Assembly: GCA_000720535.1 (NCBI GenBank)
Contig: JOAZ01000018.1
Location: 62,001-126,000 of the forward strand
Source of the DNA: Streptomyces halstedii
Lineage (GTDB): Bacteria > Actinomycetota > Actinomycetes > Streptomycetales > Streptomycetaceae
DNA: 64,000 nt
Reading direction: 5' to 3'
Shown: one piece after another, positions 22,679 to 32,198 of the stretch
How the letters are laid out: each line of letters starts with the position of its first letter
Numbering within the stretch: position 1 is the first letter of the stretch
The notes under the pieces: generated by a model
Seen by the model: only the letters and a program-made list of their open reading frames with translations
Told to the model about the DNA's origin: nothing
The model's database searches: none
Program-made: the position numbers and the translations under genes

Positions 22679-22765
22679 GGCGCTGCCCGGCCCGCGCGGC
22701 AGGAAAGGGAAAGGCGGAGGGGAATCGGGGGCCCGGGGCACAGCTCCGAGCCCCCGATTCTCGAT

Positions 22766-22984
22766 GCTGCGACGGTGCTCGCGCACAGCGTGCGCATCGT
22801 GGCGAGTGAAGTCGCCGGCGACACAGATCAGGCGGGGGCGCTCCACAGGACCTGGGCTGCGGTCGGCACTCCGAGCCTGTCGCGGACCAGGCTGTCGAAG
22901 GCGCTCCGGTGCCGGGTGAGCCACGACAGGTAGCAGAGGCCCTGGTTGATCACGCCGACATCCGTGCCGCGCTTGTACTCGACA
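22766..22984 (-). pseudogene. PD-(D/E)XK-like nuclease, C-terminal part of a split gene
   Basis: The minus strand reads VEYKRGTDVGVINQGLCYLSWLTRHRSAF...TAAQVLWSAP. After a one-base deletion in a C run near 22836 it continues LICVAGDFTRHDAHAVREHRRSIE. The EYK is the second half of a nuclease ExK motif whose first half lies at 28991-29201, on the far side of a 6-kb transposon. Beyond about 22766 the protein-like sequence stops (NRGLGAVP...), so the 3' end was lost separately. The function of the intact family is presumed DNA cleavage or DNA-end processing. Confidence 0.75.
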
Positions 22985-22998
22985 TTACCGACTGCAGG
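22985..22998. repeat. Terminal inverted repeat, left end of the transposon
   Basis: TTACCGACTGCAGG marks the left boundary. To its left the nuclease gene resumes after the core bases CTCGACA. It matches the right-end repeat in 13 of 14 positions when reverse complemented. Confidence 0.85.
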
Positions 22999-23141
22999 AG
23001 CTCGGATACCGGCTCTGAACTGCGACGATTCATCGCCGAGAGTGCTAGGCGTGCATGCCGAGGTATGCCTATCCGTGGCAGACACGGCCGGAGGATCATC
23101 CTGCGTGTTTGCCGCTGAATCGGGTCGTCTGTGGCGCTTAT

Positions 23142-23765
23142 TCATAGCTGCGGCTCCGGGGGCGAGTTGGGCCGTAGGAAGCGTTGGAGAATCAGGCGCA
23201 GGGTAGGGAGCTGGTCGGCCGGGCTGAAGGATGGGTCGGTGGCGGCGCTGGTGTAGAGAGCGGCGATAAGAGCCATGACCCATGCTGCGGTGTCGTCCGG
23301 GTCCAGGGCGGGGTCGATCTGGCCTGCTGCGGCTGCGTTCCGCAACAGCGTGGTGACGGTGGACCGCTCCTCGTCGTTGTCACGACTCAGCAGCACTTCG
23401 AGATCGGGGTCGCGGTATGCCTGGATCATCGCCTCCATGACAAGGGCGGGGACCAGCGGCTCTATGGCAGGGACGGTGAGAAGGTCCACGGTGTCGAGAA
23501 GGGCGGCCCACGGGTCGTCGGCGGCGCGGGCGGCGGAGAGACGCTCCGCCTTGGTGGCGTTGTCGTCCTCGTCCTCGAAAACGGCGTGGAAGATCGCGCG
23601 CTTGTTGGGGAAGTAGTGGAACAGGTTGCCCGCGCTCATGCCGGCGGCCTTGCAGATCTCTGCCGTGGTGGTGCGCTCGAATCCTCTGGCGGCGAAGAGC
23701 TCGGCTGCCGTGTTGACGATGTGCTGACGCCGTGCCCGGTGTCTGGCCGGATCGACTGTCCTCAT
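23142..23765 (-). CDS. TetR-family regulator (transposon cargo)
   Basis: This 207-aa regulator has a classic TetR DNA-binding domain: RRQHIVNTAAELFAARGFERTTTAEICKAAGMSAGNLFHYFPNKRAIF, residues about 12-60. A ligand domain follows, with the C-terminal IAALYTSAATDPSF region. ATG 23765 follows AGAAGGGGACC. It is transcribed away from the YqeB-like gene, and a 30-bp perfect palindrome lies between them. It is intact, unlike the transposition genes, which suggests the cargo is under selection or is a more recent acquisition. Confidence 0.88.
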   Translation of the reverse strand: MRTVDPARHRARRQHIVNTAAELFAARGFERTTTAEICKAAGMSAGNLFHYFPNKRAIFHAVFEDEDDNATKAERLSAARAADDPWAALLDTVDLLTVPAIEPLVPALVMEAMIQAYRDPDLEVLLSRDNDEERSTVTTLLRNAAAAGQIDPALDPDDTAAWVMALIAALYTSAATDPSFSPADQLPTLRLILQRFLRPNSPPEPQL

Positions 23766-23812
23766 CGTGGTCCCCTTCTGGTCGGTTCTCGGCTCCTCCG
23801 ACCCTTCAGGCT

Positions 23813-23842
23813 AATAATAGACCGAGTACTCGGTCTATTATT
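23813..23842. promoter_or_regulatory. 30-bp perfect palindromic operator
   Basis: The half site AATAATAGACCGAGT (23813-23827) is followed immediately by its exact reverse complement (23828-23842). It lies in the 105-bp gap between the divergent TetR and YqeB-like genes, covering the expected promoters. Its ACCGAGTACTCGGT centre resembles many TetR operators. It is strongly AT-rich at the edges against a GC-rich background. Confidence 0.85.
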
Positions 23843-23870
23843 TACGGAGACAGCAGGAGCAAGGGGGAAC

Positions 23871-24596
23871 ATGAGCATGCGCAAGAGACTTGAGCGAAGC
23901 CCGCGAGGTGACCGGCTCACCGTGCTCGGCCAGTCGGCGTGGGGCGCCGTGTGCGTCTATTTCGTTTTCGTGTTGGCAGGGGCGGGTCTCGGGTGGCTGG
24001 TCGGCCTCCTGGCCGACTGGCTTGTGACGCTTCCCCGTGTACCGCTGCAGGGACCGGCCGAGCTCGTTGCGTCAGTCCCCGTTCCGTGGCTGCCCGCCGC
24101 GGGTTCGGTGGCAGGGCTGACCCTCGGACTTGTTGCCCAGCACGAGCAGTTGGTGATTCGCCTGTCGGATGAGCGCGCTGTGCTCACGAGCAAGGGGCGT
24201 GCGCAGGAGTTCTCGCGCGACGCCGTCGCCGCGGTGTTCCGGGACGGCAAGCAACTCGTCCTGCTCGGCCACGACAGTGGCGAGCTCACTCGGCAAGAGT
24301 GCGACCTGGACGTCGGCCGCGTTGCCGACGCCTTCACCGAGCACGGCTACGTGTGGGCGGACGCCGATCCGTACAAGGACAAGTTCCGCCGCTGGGTCCC
24401 TGATACTCCGGGTCTCCCGGAGGGTGCGAACGCCCTCCTCAAGGCCCGCCAGGAGTCGTTGGAAAGTAAGAGTCCCTCCGACGACGACGTTCGGGAGCTC
24501 CGTGAGGAACTGGCCCGTCTCGGCGTCGTCGTGAGGAACGAGAAGCGACGTCAGTACTGGAGGACGTTCCGGAACGCAGGTCCGGCCGTGCAATGA
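23871..24596 (+). CDS. YqeB-like membrane protein (transposon cargo)
   Basis: This 241-aa protein has two membrane segments near the N-terminus (AVCVYFVFVLAGAGLGWLVG and a second around residues 60-82 containing WLPAAGSVAGLTLGLV). A cytoplasmic part follows, containing KGRAQEFSRDAVAAVFRDGKQLVLLG and a helical C-terminus. The layout matches actinobacterial YqeB-family proteins of unknown function. ATG 23871 follows CAAGGGGGAAC. It is controlled most likely by the divergent TetR through the palindrome at 23813-23842. It sits inside the transposon as probable cargo; a role in stress or drug response would be a guess. Confidence 0.65.
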   Translation: MSMRKRLERSPRGDRLTVLGQSAWGAVCVYFVFVLAGAGLGWLVGLLADWLVTLPRVPLQGPAELVASVPVPWLPAAGSVAGLTLGLVAQHEQLVIRLSDERAVLTSKGRAQEFSRDAVAAVFRDGKQLVLLGHDSGELTRQECDLDVGRVADAFTEHGYVWADADPYKDKFRRWVPDTPGLPEGANALLKARQESLESKSPSDDDVRELREELARLGVVVRNEKRRQYWRTFRNAGPAVQ

Positions 24597-24690
24597 ATGG
24601 CAGTGAGGCTGGCTGGACTGTGTCCTCCGGGGAAGCCGAAGCTGGTGTCACGGCGTGCGTGCGTCATCGGATTCCGGAAGTCTGCCAGAG

Positions 24691-25266
24691 TCAACCGAGC
24701 GGGTCGGCGAGTCGGGCTTCGAGGTCGGTGATGCGCCGGTCCTGGAAGCGGAGGTTGGAGCGGGCCGCCTGGAGGCGCTCATCGAGGGTGCGGTTGTCGG
24801 TCGTCAGCCGGCGGACCCGCTGTTTGAGGGTGGTGTTCCCCGTGGTAATCCGCTGGATGGTTTCTTCGGTCCGCTCGGCCTCCAAGTCGCGGATCTGACC
24901 GGAGAGTTCACCGATACGGGTGCGCTGGTTGAGGATTTCCGCGTGGGCGGCCTTGAGGGCGTCCTCTGCGTTCAGTGTGCGTTCGCGACAGGTCGCCTCG
25001 TGCTCGTCGTCCTGCTCGGCGTGCATCCGGACGCGGCGTTCACCGACCTTGGCCATCGCCGAGGCGATGACGGCTCGGGCCTCGGGGTTGTCGTAGAGGA
25101 AGGTGCGTGAGACGTCCGCGCGGCGGGCGACGGCGGCGACGCTGACCTGCACCTTCTCACGCCGCAATCGAGCGACGGCGTCGTGAACGCGCCGAAGGGC
25201 GGCACCGGTCTTCTGGCGACGGGCCGCCAGGGCCGCGGCCGTGCGCGGTGCGGGGGCGGTGGTCAT
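24691..25266 (-). CDS. Transposition protein TnpC-like (DUF6262)
   Basis: This 191-aa protein has an N-terminal basic region and a small helix-turn-helix (VQVSVAAVARRADVSRTFLYDNPEAR, about residues 39-64). A long coiled coil to the end follows (TLNAEDALKAAHAEILNQRTRIGELS... and later heptads). This is the TnpC component of Tn554-type elements, which helps orient or regulate the two recombinases. ATG 25266 overlaps the TnpB stop (ATGA). It is the only one of the three transposition genes without frameshifts. Confidence 0.8.
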   Translation of the reverse strand: MTTAPAPRTAAALAARRQKTGAALRRVHDAVARLRREKVQVSVAAVARRADVSRTFLYDNPEARAVIASAMAKVGERRVRMHAEQDDEHEATCRERTLNAEDALKAAHAEILNQRTRIGELSGQIRDLEAERTEETIQRITTGNTTLKQRVRRLTTDNRTLDERLQAARSNLRFQDRRITDLEARLADPLG

Positions 25267-27811
25267 GCGACGTCCTGTCCGGGGTCGGTGCCCTCGGCTG
25301 AGCACGTATCGCTGTACTCGCTCTTCTCCTCGACGCCGGCGAGGTCGGCGGCCCGGAAGGTGGTGGACCACACGCGGTGGAAGTAGTCCTGGGGTTTACC
25401 CAGGTCCAGGGCGAGGGCGTCGTCGAGGAGGCCGAGGCCGGCCAGGGCTTTCTCCAGGCCGTCGATGGCGCGGGCAGTGGGCTCGAAGTAACGGTGGAGG
25501 TAGTCGGCGGTTGTGTCGTCGGGGGCGCGCTCGGCCAGCAGTCGCCACTGCTCGCGCTTGCGCCGCCAGTAGAGGAGGTCGGCGCCCGAGAGGACGAACT
25601 TGTCGCAGTTGTGACAGTCGAGGTTGAAGGGGCAGGCGCCGCCGTTGACGACGGGCTGGAAGGTGCAGAATCCACCCTCGGCGGGGGTGCTGCGGCGAGA
25701 GAGGTCGATGGCCAGGGCCTGGGCCTGCTCGTGGGTGAGCGGGGTGGTGTCGCTGGTGAGGAGTTCGCCGGGACGCATGGTGCCGGGGCCGGCGACCCAT
25801 ACGTGCTGGAGGACGTTGTCCAGGTCCGACTGGGTCAGGTGGACGTAGTGCTCGGCCATGCGGTCGGAGATGTGGCCGAGGTAGCGGCGGATGTGGGTCA
25901 GGGTCGCGCCGCAGCAGCCGGGTGGCCAGCGTGTGCCGGGCCTCGGTGGGCGACGTGGTGCCCACCGAGGTCGAGGTCGGTGAGCCAGCTACGGAAGCCG
26001 GTGTGGAACCAAGTGTAGGACAGCGCGCGGCGGCCGTCGGGGTTGAGGATGTCGGTGGGGAACAGCGCCAGGTGGGCGCGCTCGGCAGCGGTGGGCGGGC
26101 AGCCGGCGTGCCGGTCGGCGAAGTGGGCCAGGGTCTTGCGGCGGCGTTCTTCGAGTCGGTCCAGGAGATGGTCGGGGATACGGCCAACGCAGTCCAGCCG
26201 GAGCTGGATGACCTCGCTGGCGCGCCGGCCGGTGACGATGATGGTCTCCCACATGTCCCGCAGGCCCCGGTCGTGCGGGTCGTAGCCGACGGCAAGCTGC
26301 CGCAGGTTGGCCTCGTCCGCAAGCACCCGCGACTTCGTCGGGGAAGGGGTTACGGCTACGGGGCGTGCCCGGGCCTCCGACCGGCATCGCGGCGATGAAG
26401 GCGCGGTCCAGGCCGATTCTCTCGGCGCTGCCGCTGTCCAGCGCGCTGCGTAGAAGAGACCCGCCATAGTTGAACACCATCCGGCGCGAGTTCTCGGTGA
26501 CCTTCGCCCTTTTGCCGTCCAGGCGTGCCTGTCCGCGGAAGGCCAGGCCGAGGCGTTCGCGGTTGCGCAGGTCCGCGACGAAGCGGCGAATGCGCTCGCC
26601 GCGCAGCATGGTGGGGTCGTGGCCGCCGCCGGGCGCCTCGGCCTCCAAGAACGCGGACGGTTCGGCGCCGGCGCGGCGCACGAAGTCCACCGGCTGGGCG
26701 CGGCGCGGGCAGGTGGGCGAGCGCAGCACGTCGGCGATGTGATCCCACAGGAGGTCGCGCAGCCATCACAGGGTGATGCAGGTGAGGTCGACGTAGCTGG
26801 AGCGGTGGGGGAAGCGCACCCCGAAGTGCTCGGTCTCGATGTAGCCGGCGTCCCGGGTGTCGGAGGGGGTGAAATAGATCTTCCGCAGGGCCTGTTGTAT
26901 CTCCTGGACCATGCGCTGGTGGTAGGCGCGGCGGAAGACGGACGCATCTAGGCCGGCCAAAGACGCCACGTCGCGGCGCTGGCACTCGTCCGCGAGCGAC
27001 TGCACCCACGTCAGATGCCACACGGCGACGGGCTGCAGGCCGTGGACATACATGCCCCACTGCAACTCGGCCCGCAGCAGGGGCCGCAGCCCGCGCAGGT
27101 TGACCGTTCCGGTGCGGTGGACCGGCAGTTGTGCGCGGCACCAGGCGCGGAAGGCAACCTGGTCCTCGCAGGTCACCGGGACAGGGCGATCACGGCGCTC
27201 GTAGGTGGCGAAGAAGTTCTTCGGCGTCTTCGCCCCGCCCGGGCGCCCGGCCCGGATGTAGCCGCGCTCGTGCGCGCCGCACAACCCCAGCGGCGAGGCT
27301 GCCAGCTCGTCGCACACGTCCGCGCGGCACTCACCGTAGCCCGGCAGCCGACGGCTGGTCGGTCAGCCATCGCTCGAACTCCGCCTCGCCCCCGCCGGGG
27401 TGCCGCTTCAGGTGGCCAAGCCACCGGTTGCGGAAGCACAACACCAACTGCAGGCTGAACGCCGGCCGCTGCGGGCAGATCCGGCACATCATCGCCTCCG
27501 GCATCTCCGTGGCCGGCAGCGGCTCCGCCGCCCGCAGAAACTGAGCCCGGCTCATCCCGCGCGCCTCCGCCTCCTGCCACCGCTCGGCGTGAACCGAGCA
27601 CATCGCGTAGCGCCGCCAGCGGGGCCGCGCAGTCGACGACCGTGCAGCTCCACGGATAGACCGGGTGCGTCGGCGGGATCTTCAGCACCCCGCCGCGCAG
27701 CACCGGGTCGAACTCGGGCCCGTTGATCAGCGTGGTGAGCACCTCCAGCCGGCTCGTCCCGTGCGGGCATCCTGCTGCGGCAGCAGCGACGGCGCCGTCA
27801 CTTCGTCTCAC
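25263..27811 (-). pseudogene. TnpB-like tyrosine recombinase, multiply frameshifted
   Basis: Joined across frames the reading gives a protein of about 850 aa characteristic of Tn554-type TnpB. The parts are LEVLTTLINGPEFDPVLRGGVLKIPP (27760-27680), MCSVHAERWQEAEARGMSRAQFL (27603 on), CDELAASPLGLCGAHERGY (27315 on) and RDLLWDHIADVLRSP...RRFVADLRNRERL (26760 on). The catalytic region has RRASEVIQLRLD (Arg), EARHTLATRLL (His/Arg) and YLGHISDRMAEHYVHLT (Tyr near 25840). A Cys-rich segment CPFNLDCHNCDKF follows. At least five frame changes are needed (about 27770, 27605, 27330, 26765, 26380 and 25935), so it is inactive. Confidence 0.75.
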
Positions 27812-28866
27812 CCCAGACCGTGCGCAGAGCGGCATGGAAGACCGGGTCGTGGACATCGACGTGGCCGTAGACCTCATCCACCATCGCCGCCGACGTCCAG
27901 CCGCCGGCGTCCCGGGCGATGAGCAGGTTGCCGTCGGCGGCGTCGAAACCGCGGACGTGAACGAGTGCCGGAAGGCATGGGGGCTTCACCAGCCCGAGCC
28001 TGGCGCGCCTCCCGGCCTGGCCGAGCATCCGCCGGGCCCCGACCGGCGCCCACGGTTGTCCGGTAGCGGCGCCGTGCAGCTGCACCAGGAGCATGCCGTG
28101 CCCGGCGCCGCGCGGGTGCTCGGTGGTGACGTACTCGAAGTAGGTGTGCACCATCGCCGGACTGACCCGCTTGATCAGCCCGCCTGTAACGATGCCGTGC
28201 TCGACCCGCCAAGGGCGCTTGCTCTTGGCCTCAGCCCGGTTCGGATTACCGGGCCGGTGGCAGACGTGCAGGTGAGGGGCCCGGCACTCGCCGCAGGCCG
28301 CGTTCTCCCGCAGATGCAGGTCGACCAGATGCAGCCCGCACAGCTCACCGATCCTCAAGCCCCCTTCGGTGCCAGCGGGTTGGTGGGCAGCGACGACTAC
28401 ACATGCCCGAGGAACGAACGGCGCCGGTCCACCCGCGACGGCAGCCGCGACTTGTCGAGCTTCTTGCCGAGTTCGCCGTTGATGCCGAGGGAGGACTGGT
28501 GCAGGTAGAAGCCCTTCAGGCAAGCCGCCGCGGTCGACAGCGCGGACCGGCCGTATGGGCGCTTCCCGACCCGCCACGGCTCGCCGAGCGGCATGCGGAC
28601 CTCGACGCCGACTATACCCATGTACCTTTCCAGATCCCGCAGTTGGACTGCGGCGAAGGCCAGGCACTCGCGCTCCAGCCACCACAAGTGGTCCACCAGC
28701 AGATACGCGTACGTCCTCTGCGTTCCCGAACCTCATGAAGACGCAGGAACCGGTCCGCCTCCGCATAGACCGTCCCCTCGGGCCACACGATCGTCCACGA
28801 CCGCCGCCCGTCCTTCCGCTCGATCTGCTGGACCCTCAAGTCCCCGACCACCACGTGTCGTGCCAC
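27798..28866 (-). pseudogene. TnpA-like tyrosine recombinase, frameshifted
   Basis: GTG 28866 follows GGAGGACAA and begins ARHVVVGDLRVQQIERKDGRR. Reading continues after a frame change near 28735 as DHLWWLERECLAFAAVQLRDLERYMGIVGVEVRMP...KGFYLHQSSLGINGE, and after another near 28395 as GLRIGELCGLHLVDLHL. It ends with the C-terminal catalytic part DAADGNLLIARDAGGWTSAAMVDEVYGHVDVHDP. Around 27960-28000 two compensating indels scramble the expected HAFRHSFTSA active-site segment. The total span equals about 356 codons, as for TnpA of Tn554. The stop region overlaps the TnpB start. Confidence 0.75.
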
Positions 28867-28976
28867 TTGTCCTCCGTACCGACTCCAGAACATGACAGAC
28901 GTCCCGGACACGGTCGGTAAACAAGCCAGGGACGTGCTGGTCACAGTCCCAGACGGACATCACGGGCAGGACTACC

Positions 28977-28990
28977 TGCGGTCGGTAACT
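28977..28990. repeat. Terminal inverted repeat, right end of the transposon
   Basis: CCTGCGGTCGGTAA is the mate of the left-end repeat, with one mismatch. The core CTCAAC at 28991-28996 follows, and then the nuclease gene resumes. Confidence 0.85.
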
Positions 28991-29201
28991 CAACGATGAC
29001 CGGCGCACCGTTCTCGTCAATCCCGAGCGAGTCGATCCGCCCGCCGTCAACGCAGTCGATCACATACTCGCTCACCAGGAACCGCACCCCCAGCATCGTC
29101 TCCTTGTGCGCCTCGATAAGGCTCTGCACATCCGCCTCGACGTCAGCAAGACGCGACGTGACCTCAGCCACTCCGCCTTTCGTCGTGTGGAACAGCTTCA
29201 C
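28991..29201 (-). pseudogene. PD-(D/E)XK-like nuclease, N-terminal part of a split gene
   Basis: GTG 29201 is preceded by GAGGAGGGGAGG and encodes 70 residues: KLFHTTKGGVAEVTSRLADV, IEAHKETMLGVRFLVSEYVI, and GGRIDSLGIDENGAPVIVE. The D-x(n)-E pattern in RIDSLGIDENGAPVIVE is the first half of a PD-(D/E)XK active site; the following YK lies at 22984 on the other side of the transposon. Past the junction the frame enters the element and reads LPTAGSPARD before a stop. Start and ribosome binding site are intact, so a short truncated peptide may still be made. Confidence 0.78.
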
Positions 29202-29584
29202 CCGACACCTCCCCTCCTCGGTTCGGAGATCATCAACGCCGAGCCGGTGTCCGTTGTCCCTCATTGCTGCATGGGGGCGGCGAATCTACGTGGGCAGTGA
29301 AGGAAGGAGGTGATCGGGCTGGGTCCGGTCTGTGCAACTTGACTTTGCACTGCCCGTCCGCGGCTGCGGGGATCGCGTCTTCCGAGCGCCACGGGCGGTT
29401 GGGGGCGCTGAAGACTACCCCCGCCATGTGTCATGGGGCAGTTGTCTGCCGTCAACAACGTTCGTGATCAATACACCTAGGCGTCCAGGTCCGCATCTGC
29501 GGCCGGGGTCGTGTCGTATGACGCAGGCACCGGCCCTGACAGGCTCGGCGCTTCGCCCCGCCCCCGGAGGCGGGGGGGGAGCGT
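29202..29584. other. Gap between nuclease start and LysR end
   Basis: About 380 bases hold the promoter side of the split nuclease gene and the terminator of the LysR gene. I see no credible gene; the overlapping frames are low in coding character. Confidence 0.5.
29556..29575. terminator. Short GC hairpin at the LysR end
   Basis: CCCCGCC (29556-29562) pairs with GGCGGGG (29569-29575) around a 6-nt loop, 10 bp past the LysR stop on its strand. Confidence 0.4.
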
Positions 29585-30537: not shown

Positions 30538-30855
30538 ATGATTCACCACACGATGATCGTTTCGTTCGACAATCCGATTCCCGCTAGTGAGCTGGACCAG
30601 TATCTGAAGGAGTTCGAGGAGCTCATGATGGGCTCCGGTCTGGTCGAGTCGGTCGCGGCCCGGCACCACATTCGCGTCCCGGGTGACGACCATGCTCCGG
30701 TGGCGGTGGCCTCCGCGATCGTGCAGCTGCGCCTGGCCGACCTCGACGCCCTGAACGCCACGTTCAAGATGCCCGGGGCACTCGACCTCATCAAGCGCTG
30801 GCAGGCCCGTCACCCGTACAAGGCGATCTGGGTCAACCACGAGCCGCTGGCATGA
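30538..30855 (+). CDS. Small Dabb-like protein
   Basis: This 105-aa protein has the alternating strand/helix pattern of dimeric alpha-beta barrel (Dabb/stress-responsive) proteins: HHTMIVSFDNPIPASELDQYLKEFEELM and FKMPGALDLIKRWQARHPY. ATG 30538 is the best start by similarity to such proteins. It overlaps the SDR start (ATGA) and is divergent to LysR, so it is probably expressed with the SDR. Members of this fold act as small cyclases, decarboxylases or monooxygenases in some polyketide pathways, but nothing here fixes the role. Confidence 0.55.
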   Translation: MIHHTMIVSFDNPIPASELDQYLKEFEELMMGSGLVESVAARHHIRVPGDDHAPVAVASAIVQLRLADLDALNATFKMPGALDLIKRWQARHPYKAIWVNHEPLA

Positions 30856-31614
30856 GCAGCTACTCGGGCACAGCCGGTCTGGTGATCGGCGCCGGCAGCG
30901 GAATCGGGCGCACTGCCGCGCTCGATTTCGCCCGGCGTGGCGCCGCGGTCGCCGTCCTGGACCTGGACCGTGCCCGCGAGACCGTGAAGCTGATGGCCGG
31001 GGAGGGCGGTCGGGCCGAGGCCGTCGCCGTCGACATCGGCGACGAGGCGTCCGTCCGGCAGGCGGTGGCCCGGGTCATGGACGCGTTCGGCGGGCTCGAC
31101 TTCGCGGTCGACAACGCCGGAATCCCCTCACACAACCGGGTCCTCACCGACATGACGCTCCAGGAGTGGGAGCACGTGCTGCGGGTCAACGTGATCGGCA
31201 CCTGGCTGTGCATGAAGTATGAACTGCCCGCCTTGCAGCGGCGGGGCGGCGGGGCGGCGGGGCGGCGGGGCGATCGTCAACGTCGCCTCCAACGGCGGCC
31301 TGTACGCCATTCCCGCAGCGCCGGCGTACGTGGCCAGCAAGCACGGTGTTGTCGGTCTGTCCAAGGTGGCCGTCGGCTACGGCCCGGACAACATCCGGGT
31401 CAGCGCACTGTGCCCCGCGCTGACGAAGACAGCCATGTTCGACGGCGTAGTCGCACGGGCCGGCACGCAGATGGTCGCCCAGCAGCAGATGGTCGCCCAG
31501 CAGGAGGCCGTCACCCCGCCGCGCAGGCTGGCGGAGTCCGAAGAGGTCGCCGCCGCCGCGGTGTGGCTGTGCTCGCCGGAGGCCACCTACGTCACCACGA
31601 ACTGGGCCACCTGA
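30852..31614 (+). pseudogene. Short-chain dehydrogenase, out of frame through a tandem repeat
   Basis: The gene encodes an NAD(P)-dependent SDR with GAGSGIGRTAA near residue 13, DNAGIPS near 91, the catalytic Tyr/Lys in YVASKHG and a normal C-terminus (EVAAAAVWLCSPEATYVTTNWAT). Between 31238 and 31269 four perfect copies of GCGGCGGG shift the frame. With two copies the reading QRRGGGAIVNVASN would be continuous and give a normal 248-aa enzyme. A second, in-frame duplication (CAGATGGTCGCCCAGCAG twice, 31468-31503) adds six residues (QMVAQQ). As written the product is truncated or garbled after about residue 130, but repeat loss or gain could restore it. Confidence 0.75.
31238..31269. repeat. 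Four perfect copies of GCGGCGGG inside the SDR gene
   Basis: An 8-bp unit is repeated four times without mismatch, followed by a partial fifth copy (GCG). Since 8 is not a multiple of 3, each unit gained or lost changes the reading frame. Two or five copies restore the SDR frame; three or four do not. Confidence 0.9.
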
Positions 31615-32198
31615 TCTTGCACGGCGACACCAATCCGGGGGACATTACTCAACGCGCGCAGTCATCGCAAAGACGTCGGCTTCCGACGGCAGATTCGAAC
31701 TTGAGCCTGCTCAAGCAGAGTCAGACTCGCGCCTTGCGCTCATCCGCTCGGCGCCAGGCTTCTGCTCTGCTCGCGCAAGGCACTCACTCAACCTGCCCTT
31801 TGGCAGCGCCTCCTGCGGCATGACGTCCCGTGCCGCCAGGCCGTAGCAGCGTCACTTCCTGGGGAGAATCTGGGGAGTATCGACGGTCCTGGGAAGCGCC
31901 TGGGGAGAATCGACCGCGTAACGCAGCACGATCGCGAAAGACGCTGAAAGACTTATCCGCGCAGGTCAGGGGCGGGTACAGCCGCATCGATGCAGATCAG
32001 CGCCACCAGGTAGACGACTTCATGACATACGTGCCCAGGTCGTCGGCCTCGACGATCCCGGGAAGTGACCCGCCCTCCCGCAGGGGTGTGACATAGCGGG
32101 TCGCTACGACTTCTTCCAACACTTTCCCAGGCCACCTATCTCTTCAGCCTTACAATCCACGGACGACCTCTCCGGGGCGTAGAGGCAAAAATCACCGG
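31615..32198. other. Gap downstream of the integrase with integrase-tail remnant
   Basis: About 580 bases lie between the SDR end and the integrase end. CTGGGGAGAATCTGGGGAGT occurs at 31859-31878 and again at 32208-32227. The second copy encodes the last residues of the integrase (NSPDSPQ), so the first is probably a leftover end of a related integrase. A palindrome CTTGAGCCTGCTCAAG lies at 31700-31715. GCCTTGCGC near 31733 and GCGCAAGGC near 31775 form an inverted pair, as might be found at recombinase arm sites. No intact tRNA or clear attachment site was found. Confidence 0.45.

Follow-up and report, generated by a model that had tools for sequence, protein, structure and literature searches.

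Insertion of the element into a nuclease gene

The window analyzed here is a stretch of 64,000 nucleotides of Streptomyces halstedii DNA (contig JOAZ01000018.1, positions 62,001–126,000 of the forward strand). Within it, a mobile element of 6004 bp (22985–28988) splits a nuclease gene inside its active-site motif. Copies lie at the same codon in other genomes, empty homologues run continuously through the site, and the copies share their ends. In several cases that can be read at the protein level, the 6-bp core at the left end belongs to the target gene and the core at the right end is foreign to it, and the N-terminal region of the long recombinase TnpB (TnpB-N) tracks the target. Our reading is that the element is a dead copy from an actinobacterial, Tn554-related group, that its attachment site is the DNA encoding the ExK motif of PDC-S18-type nucleases, and that TnpB-N reads the target for a machinery shared with elements inserted elsewhere. 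We give this reading a probability of about 0.68.

Both junctions were read directly from the sequence. The minus strand runs from GTCATCGTTGAG into TTACCGACCGCAGG, through about 6 kb, and then into CCTGCAGTCGGTAA, a single T and GTCGAGTACAAGCGC. Marking the insertion point by a slash, here and below, the left junction on this strand is GTC ATC GTT GAG / TTACCGACCGCAGG and the right junction is CCTGCAGTCGGTAA T / GTC GAG TAC AAG CGC. The insertion point lies between the Glu codon (28991–28989) and the Tyr-Lys codons of the VE-YK motif. The terminal repeats TTACCGACCGCAGG (28975–28988) and CCTGCAGTCGGTAA (22985–22998), both given on the minus strand and both with similar ends in relatives, are identical at 13 of 14 positions; no such match was found in 200,000 random position pairs of the window. 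The left core, GTTGAG (28989–28994, minus strand), consists of the target codons Val-Glu. The right core, GTCGAG (22978–22983, minus strand), is taken as the footprint of an earlier insertion site, and it is the native core in 7 of 16 intact nuclease homologues. The first-pass annotation of this DNA had described a precise split inside the ExK motif, 14-bp inverted repeats with one mismatch and the flanking cores GTTGAG and GTCGAG, all of which are borne out. It had placed the element at 22985–28990 (6006 bp); the right edge stands, but the left end is at 28988, 2 bp further in than given. Among the matches listed in a search of the window's own draft genome were the element's own place and one 30-bp match, no more.

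The stretch TTACCGACCG is present twice within 28911–28988, with the copies 68 bp apart. The extra copy (28911–28920, minus strand), 68 bp inward of the left end, may be a second recombinase-binding site. The same spacing occurs in 33 stretches of the genome collection described below, in a scan whose pattern itself required it.

The target is a nuclease gene of the PDC-S18 family

The 5′ fragment of the interrupted gene (28989–29201, minus strand) has 71 codons, ends with ENGAPVIVE and matches NucS_C at E 0.005, below the curated cut-off. The 3′ fragment (22756–22983, minus strand) is frameshifted and truncated. It shares 95.5% identity over 223 bp with the right flank of the copy in genome G057, goes out of frame after about 50 codons, and beyond the 223 bp has no match to that flank. 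An intact homologue of 352 aa (L034) contains DUF5655 and a NucS_C-like match below the cut-off. Against the PADLOC profile PDC-S18 it scored 455 bits (E 4e-137, profile positions 12–322 of 365), and the right half of an interrupted paralogue in L053 matched the same profile at E 2e-77. By these matches, the target is a predicted NucS-like/DUF5655 gene of the PDC-S18 family, which PADLOC lists as a candidate phage-defence family only. A literature search on the name PDC-S18, with subscription literature mostly outside its coverage, found no paper, and a search of PDB sequences gave no relative of L034 up to E 1. We take the Glu and Lys of the target motif to be catalytic, as in the ExK nuclease motif. 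The insertion would inactivate the nuclease.

Among 19 loci other than the window, 16 have homologues that are continuous across the VE-YK site, with VE in 10 and IE in 6, so the inserted state holds up against intact homologues, the comparison that the first-pass annotation had proposed. The remaining three (L048, L050 and L052) gave no match to the homologue motif; L050 is itself an interrupted copy.

Recurrence at the same codon

We fetched 40 loci from the stronger matches among those listed over 295 Streptomyces genomes. A further 33 loci, partly overlapping with the 40, came from a pattern scan of a collection with one genome for each of 84,980 species. It turned out that the nuclease codon is interrupted in 12 loci of 11 genomes, the window counted. 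The left junction is seen in the window, L053, L054, L056, L098, L114, L117, L121, L168 and L169, and the right junction only in L074 and L075. Over the 60 residues before the junction, nine of the ten left-junction loci have identities of 0.43–0.92 among themselves; L098, the exception, is missing part of these residues and shows an identity of about 0.2. The upstream flanks share no common DNA at E 1e-10 in the nine of ten left-junction loci with enough sequence (L056 has only 264 bp). In one Streptomyces acidiscabies genome, two copies of 5433 bp, 100% identical, lie in two paralogous nuclease genes, both at VVVE/. No other observation argues as strongly for a real attachment site. The DNA encoding the ExK motif is thus supported as the attachment site of these elements, as had been proposed from the window itself, because of the 12 insertions at one codon, the identical S. 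acidiscabies pair and the read-through homologues. The other copies have the same ends and lie at the same codon elsewhere, so divergent ends do not speak against the proposal.

Related elements in other target genes

Related elements were found in other genes. Their classes were assigned mostly by eye from the flanking peptide, and ten flanks were scanned against Pfam and NCBIfam. Seven loci with the same ends interrupt HAD-like genes at DVD/G or DID/G (L062, L064, L065, L093, L101, L112, L119). TniB-like ATPases are interrupted at [VI]D/ (L057, L058, L063, L104, L108, L110, L125, and L142 with its right side only). Ten loci lie in TniA-like or other rve transposases, mostly at A[VKHC]/WQ (L067, L068, L076, L077, L100, L102, L113, L116, L120, L124). 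One copy (L055) sits at AE/FKE in a 3-hydroxyacyl-CoA dehydrogenase-like gene (HBDH; named by eye), and one (L073) in an IS5-like transposase. Distant relatives interrupt ATP-grasp genes at WFLE/ or VFIE/ (L070, L071), an AlkB gene at LIN/ between profile positions 101 and 102 (L084), and, by eye, the Walker B motif of ComM genes at LFLD/ (L087–L090). The class counts cover elements with readable ends and targets and leave out several distant copies (among them L069, L072, L085, L086 and L092), L061, L066, L111, L118 and the right end L164 in G321. Matches above the Pfam cut-off were obtained for TniB (L058, L108), Mg_chelatase/YifB (L090) and 2OG-FeII_Oxy_2 (right half of L084), and above the NCBIfam cut-off for GRASP_SAV_5884 (L071). 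The matches to rve/IS481 (L116), HAD_SAK_2 (L064) and the left half of AlkB were below cut-off.

The target motifs of the relatives include the HAD-like DxD and the TniB Walker B. An active-site motif is a common target and no rule, because several targets are not catalytic acids and the ends or targets of some copies were not called. Some insertion sites are near gene starts. Six related elements (L078, L080, L081, L082, L083, L091) share the site GTGAGGGT[GC]ACGGAC/ at an apparent gene start. By eye, the TniA-like copies L067, L068, L076 and L113 stand in opposite orientation at the same core; orientation seems to be free at the TniA-like site.

The N-terminal region of TnpB tracks the target

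We compared the recombinase proteins within and between target classes in 40-column steps (for TnpB 4 nuclease, 4 HAD, 5 TniB and 8 TniA rows; for TnpA 5, 7, 5 and 8). Between-class identity is 0.71–0.93 in TnpA and 0.88–0.98 in TnpB residues 724–843. Over the 19 steps of TnpB residues 1–723 it is 0.32–0.84, below 0.65 in 16 steps, with a within-class identity of 0.68–0.94. The last TnpB residues are equally variable within and between classes. For 16 elements with all three proteins (the near-duplicate L077 dropped, the HBDH copy put in the nuclease class), within-class and between-class identities are 0.769 and 0.545 for TnpB-N, 0.893 and 0.860 for TnpA, 0.890 and 0.848 for the C-terminal part of TnpB (TnpB-C), and 0.819 and 0.810 for TnpC. 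In label shuffles, which ignore kinship, p is 0.0002 for TnpB-N, TnpA and TnpB-C and 0.088 for TnpC, and the class difference is larger for TnpB-N than for each of the other three (p 0.0002).

The minimum number of target changes is 4 on the TnpB-N tree, the floor for five labels, 5 on TnpA, 7 on TnpB-C and 9 on TnpC (20, 20, 19 and 17 rows, respectively). In the TnpB-N tree, nuclease plus HBDH, HAD and TniA each have support of 100. L057 and L058 are paired in TnpB-N (100), and in TnpA they are grouped with the nuclease class (92) and the HAD class (83). In approximately unbiased (AU) tests, a single group of HAD (p 0.024) or of TniB (0.013) elements is rejected by TnpC, and one of TniB elements also by TnpA (0.013). 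A single lineage of TniB-targeting elements was also considered and was rejected by AU tests; their targets are different ATPases.

TnpB-N begins with three C..C..C-x2-H units, whose twelve Cys and His residues are invariant in 15 of 15 TnpB proteins. Assignment of TnpB-N by fold failed: the structure model was poor, and hits in the PDB profile search were confined to the catalytic end. These four hits were three Xer recombinases and, covering the same stretch, a chain labelled RaiA. Apparently, TnpB-N (residues 1 to about 700) sets the target, because it differs by target class while TnpA, TnpC and TnpB-C differ little.

The 6-bp cores

In Tn554-like elements and strand-biased circularizing elements (SEs), the left core of the donor reappears at the right end of the new copy, according to excerpts of PMC10214605 and PMC12486829. 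In our elements the two junction cores are identical in some copies and different in others. To read them, we used the native cores of uninterrupted homologues. For nucleases these are the VE and IE of the 16 readable loci given above, and for HAD genes VD in 16 of 20. For TniA, 11 of 20 loci were readable (AK in three, AV and AI in two each, AH, AC, AG and TR in one each), with VV and VH in two more. The left cores of TniA insertions, AV (two copies), AH, AK and AC, are all among the native cores; the right cores DR, SG and TG are in none of the native cores read. The right ends of L116 and L124 were matched to their left ends by genome and target. In the HBDH copy L055, the left AE is native in 7 of 15 homologues and the right IE in 0 of 15; IE is native in 6 of 16 nucleases. 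It looks as if this copy came from a nuclease site, because its right core is foreign to HBDH yet native in nucleases. The distant AlkB copy has IN at the left and SD at the right, and the ComM copy L090 has LD and VE. On the native residues that we presume for AlkB and ComM, both fit a native left and a foreign right core. Where the protein can tell, then, the left core appears native and the right core foreign, in agreement with the "brought-in" rule. No donor–copy pair displaying the transfer of a core was found among the loci examined.

The proposed mechanism and its alternatives

We propose the following scheme. Intact members would most likely circularize with a 6-bp core and then insert beside the 6-bp core of a target. 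The target's own core would remain at the left end, and the donor's core would arrive at the right end. The common machinery would comprise TnpA, TnpC, the terminal repeats and the TnpB C-terminus. The N-terminal four fifths of TnpB (the three C..C..C-x2-H units, a helical middle and most of the catalytic domain) would recognize the arms of the target, and different versions of TnpB-N would direct the element to different genes. For this group, the circular intermediates and the biochemical role of TnpB-N are what we infer from these comparisons.

A bolder form of this scheme is that the family is naturally retargetable. An exchangeable region of about 700 TnpB residues with three zinc-finger-like units would read the coding DNA surrounding a conserved motif, often one of an active site, and its exchange would move the element to a new gene; the left core would then be the target's and the right core the previous address. 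We put forward this idea tentatively, at close to even odds.

Several points weigh against our reading. TnpA and TnpB-C also track the target, weakly, with a shuffle p of 0.0002 (kinship ignored). The conflict in the AU tests is only partial: TnpA does not reject nuclease plus HBDH (0.076) and already groups HAD and TniA; TnpB-C rejects no target group (0.445, 0.291 and 0.098, HAD being already grouped); and TnpC does not reject nuclease plus HBDH (0.37) or TniA (0.063). Even in TnpB-N the TniB class falls apart (AU p 0.0148), though this class mixes different ATPases. The TnpB structure model reached a predicted local distance difference test score (pLDDT) of only 57 and a predicted template modelling score (pTM) of 0.37. 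In the S. acidiscabies pair, the left core is GTGGAG and the right cores are GTGGAA and GTCGAG; each right core differs from the left core of the other copy, and a simple scheme in which one copy seeded the other without change does not fit. The TniA-like copy L102, with KV at the left and LR at the right, had no native comparison. Finally, transposition was not observed.

The alternative that survives best, and that we regard as possible while favouring our own reading, is an ordinary site-specific element. Its core would be TCGA-like, high-GC codon usage would turn such a core into [VIL]-[DE], and the long-lived sites would be the best-conserved stretches of dispensable genes. The motif would be a by-product, and TnpB-N would differ by lineage. 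In 184 long GC-rich reading frames, 1383 of 1631 TCGA[CG] sites stand in the frame NTC-GAS. Codon usage thus makes a protein-level cause for the constant junction frame unnecessary, and we dropped such a cause. The targets without a catalytic acid, namely the TniA-like A[VKHC]/WQ, the HBDH AE/FKE, the IS5-like transposase and the sites near gene starts, also suit this explanation, as does the failure of most AU tests with TnpA, TnpB-C and TnpC to reject the target groups. However, lineage hardly explains why identities within and between classes are nearly equal in TnpA, TnpB-C and TnpC but not in TnpB-N. It also hardly explains the pairing of L057 and L058 in TnpB-N against their separate classes in TnpA.

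It is improbable that the element was selected for switching off a PDC-S18 phage-defence nuclease and thereby aiding incoming mobile DNA. The strong PDC-S18 matches of L034 and L053 favour it, but PDC-S18 is only a candidate family. Among the other target fragments scanned, two HAD genes, the ATP-grasp gene, the right half of AlkB and two TniB left halves had no PADLOC match, and one TniB right half and one TniA fragment gave merely weak TnsC/TnsB matches. A contig misjoin that placed the element between the nuclease halves is highly improbable: the genome is a draft of 105 contigs, but both junctions are base-exact and fall well within a contig of 147 kb, and the same arrangement recurs in 11 other loci.

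Genes, decay and cargo of the window's element

In intact relatives, tnpA (45–1301), tnpB (1298 to about 3922) and tnpC (from about 3919) are co-directional at the left end; TnpA has 418 aa and TnpB about 874 aa, and their genes overlap. Pfam recognizes Phage_integrase in the intact TnpA of L105 and L099 and in the intact TnpB of two relatives, at residues 513–686 in L105. The window keeps the order tnpA-tnpB-tnpC with tnpA and tnpB broken. The tnpA remnant (27798–28944, minus strand) has a deletion of about 109 bp and small indels relative to intact relatives, and the tnpB remnant, of the long tyrosine recombinase (25263–27801, minus strand), has a deletion of about 66 bp and small indels. 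None of the four open frames of tnpA and tnpB scanned in the window gave a Pfam integrase match. To judge from its genes, the window's copy is inactive, because both recombinase genes are damaged by a large deletion and small indels. The tnpC gene is open (24691–25266, minus strand; DUF6262, PF19776, E 7.8e-10); its start, chosen by eye, is the ATG overlapping the tnpB stop.

The cargo lies between tnpC and the right end. It consists of a TetR-family regulator (23142–23765, minus strand; PF00440, E 5.3e-18) and a YqeB-like PH domain protein with a CysS_C domain (23871–24596, plus strand; PF23494, E 1.3e-49, and PF23493, E 9.2e-21), which was scanned from 23862 and whose start at 23871 was chosen by eye. 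Of the gene content claimed in the first-pass annotation, tnpC, TetR and the YqeB-like gene are open and recognized by Pfam, and tnpA and tnpB are broken. With the whole element as query, none of the 40 fetched loci showed a cargo match above 60 bits. Pairs resembling TetR/YqeB are present elsewhere in Streptomyces (for example, in G253 and G294), none of them adjoining recombinase matches among the matches listed. Intact members carry roughly 1 kb or more of variable cargo. We scanned 18 other elements for cargo reading frames; four had none under the filter, and the two longest were read in each remaining one. The cargo proteins scanned from other copies, six in all, comprised a nucleotidyltransferase, an aldo/keto reductase, a glyoxalase-like protein, an APH-like phosphotransferase and an IMP cyclohydrolase-like protein, plus one that had no match. 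Among the family's many cargoes, the TetR/YqeB pair is thus a single example.

Relation to known Tn554-like systems

The Tn554-type assignment made earlier is upheld by the gene order, the two tyrosine recombinases of intact relatives, the DUF6262 third gene, the 6-bp cores and the putative donor-core footprint. Short imperfect terminal repeats and 6-bp cores that sometimes differ between junctions are present as in Tn554-related transposons. The third gene is called tnpC-like from its DUF6262 match and its position. Plasmids of staphylococci and enterococci encode distant TnpA-like proteins, compared as proteins alone (23% identity, E 1e-11). Among 72,556 plasmid records, 202 have TnpA relatives and 87 have TnpB relatives.

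The comparisons that follow are with excerpts of the cited papers. A 2012 paper (PMC3414803) defined an actinobacterial Tn554-related class, with members in Streptomyces, Rhodococcus and Mycobacterium. It has a short and an abnormally long tyrosine recombinase, mostly a TnpC-like gene, and a long N-terminal extension without a recognizable domain. Our elements have the same gene set; the present analysis resolves their ends, 6-bp cores and targets and links the extension to the choice of target. No ends, cores or target genes are described for this class in the sections of PMC3414803 examined. A literature search of titles and abstract openings, with subscription literature mostly outside its coverage, found no paper on the targets of the class among the entries listed. 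The element class is already known, and what is added is a base-exact set of targets tied to one region of TnpB.

Tn554, Tn558 and Tn6188 in radC have the same tnpABC order, 6-bp junction sequences and a strong preference for a single, highly conserved coding site (PMC3788773). In contrast to them, the window's element belongs to another host phylum and lies in the ExK codons of a nuclease instead of in radC, which marks the Firmicute members. Tn552-II tnpABC of S. aureus follows the "att-brought-in" rule and has a circular intermediate, both of which we propose here too, and it likewise has conserved residues around the target, but it has a 7-bp core, yolD-like and related plasmid-borne target genes and a resistance cargo (PMC12486829). 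SEs and GInts likewise have a large and a small tyrosine recombinase, a 6-bp footprint and few target sites; they differ in their four core genes, including Tfp/GinC, and SEs are gammaproteobacterial (PMC10214605). In the layout of intact relatives, which is tnpA, tnpB, a gene at the DUF6262 position and then cargo, Tfp/GinC does not appear, although no search was aimed at it.

The long extension of the actinobacterial Tn554-type recombinase previously had no assigned role. A natural set with a common machinery, differing TnpB-N and base-exact targets makes the choice of target testable by domain swaps. The two cores seem to record the origin of a copy, as in L055 with its nuclease-like right core. 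Recombinases of this kind would be interesting for programmable insertion, provided that their target rules can be learned.

Two further features lie upstream of the nuclease or elsewhere in the window. A short-chain dehydrogenase gene is, by eye, apparently split by a frameshift, with parts in different frames at 30852–31823 and 31219–31614. About 30 bp at approximately 29450–29482, upstream of the nuclease, recur at five further places in the window's genome, in two cases roughly 75 bp from a contig start. The same stretch, also found near contig starts in G018, resembles the end of a repeated insertion sequence.

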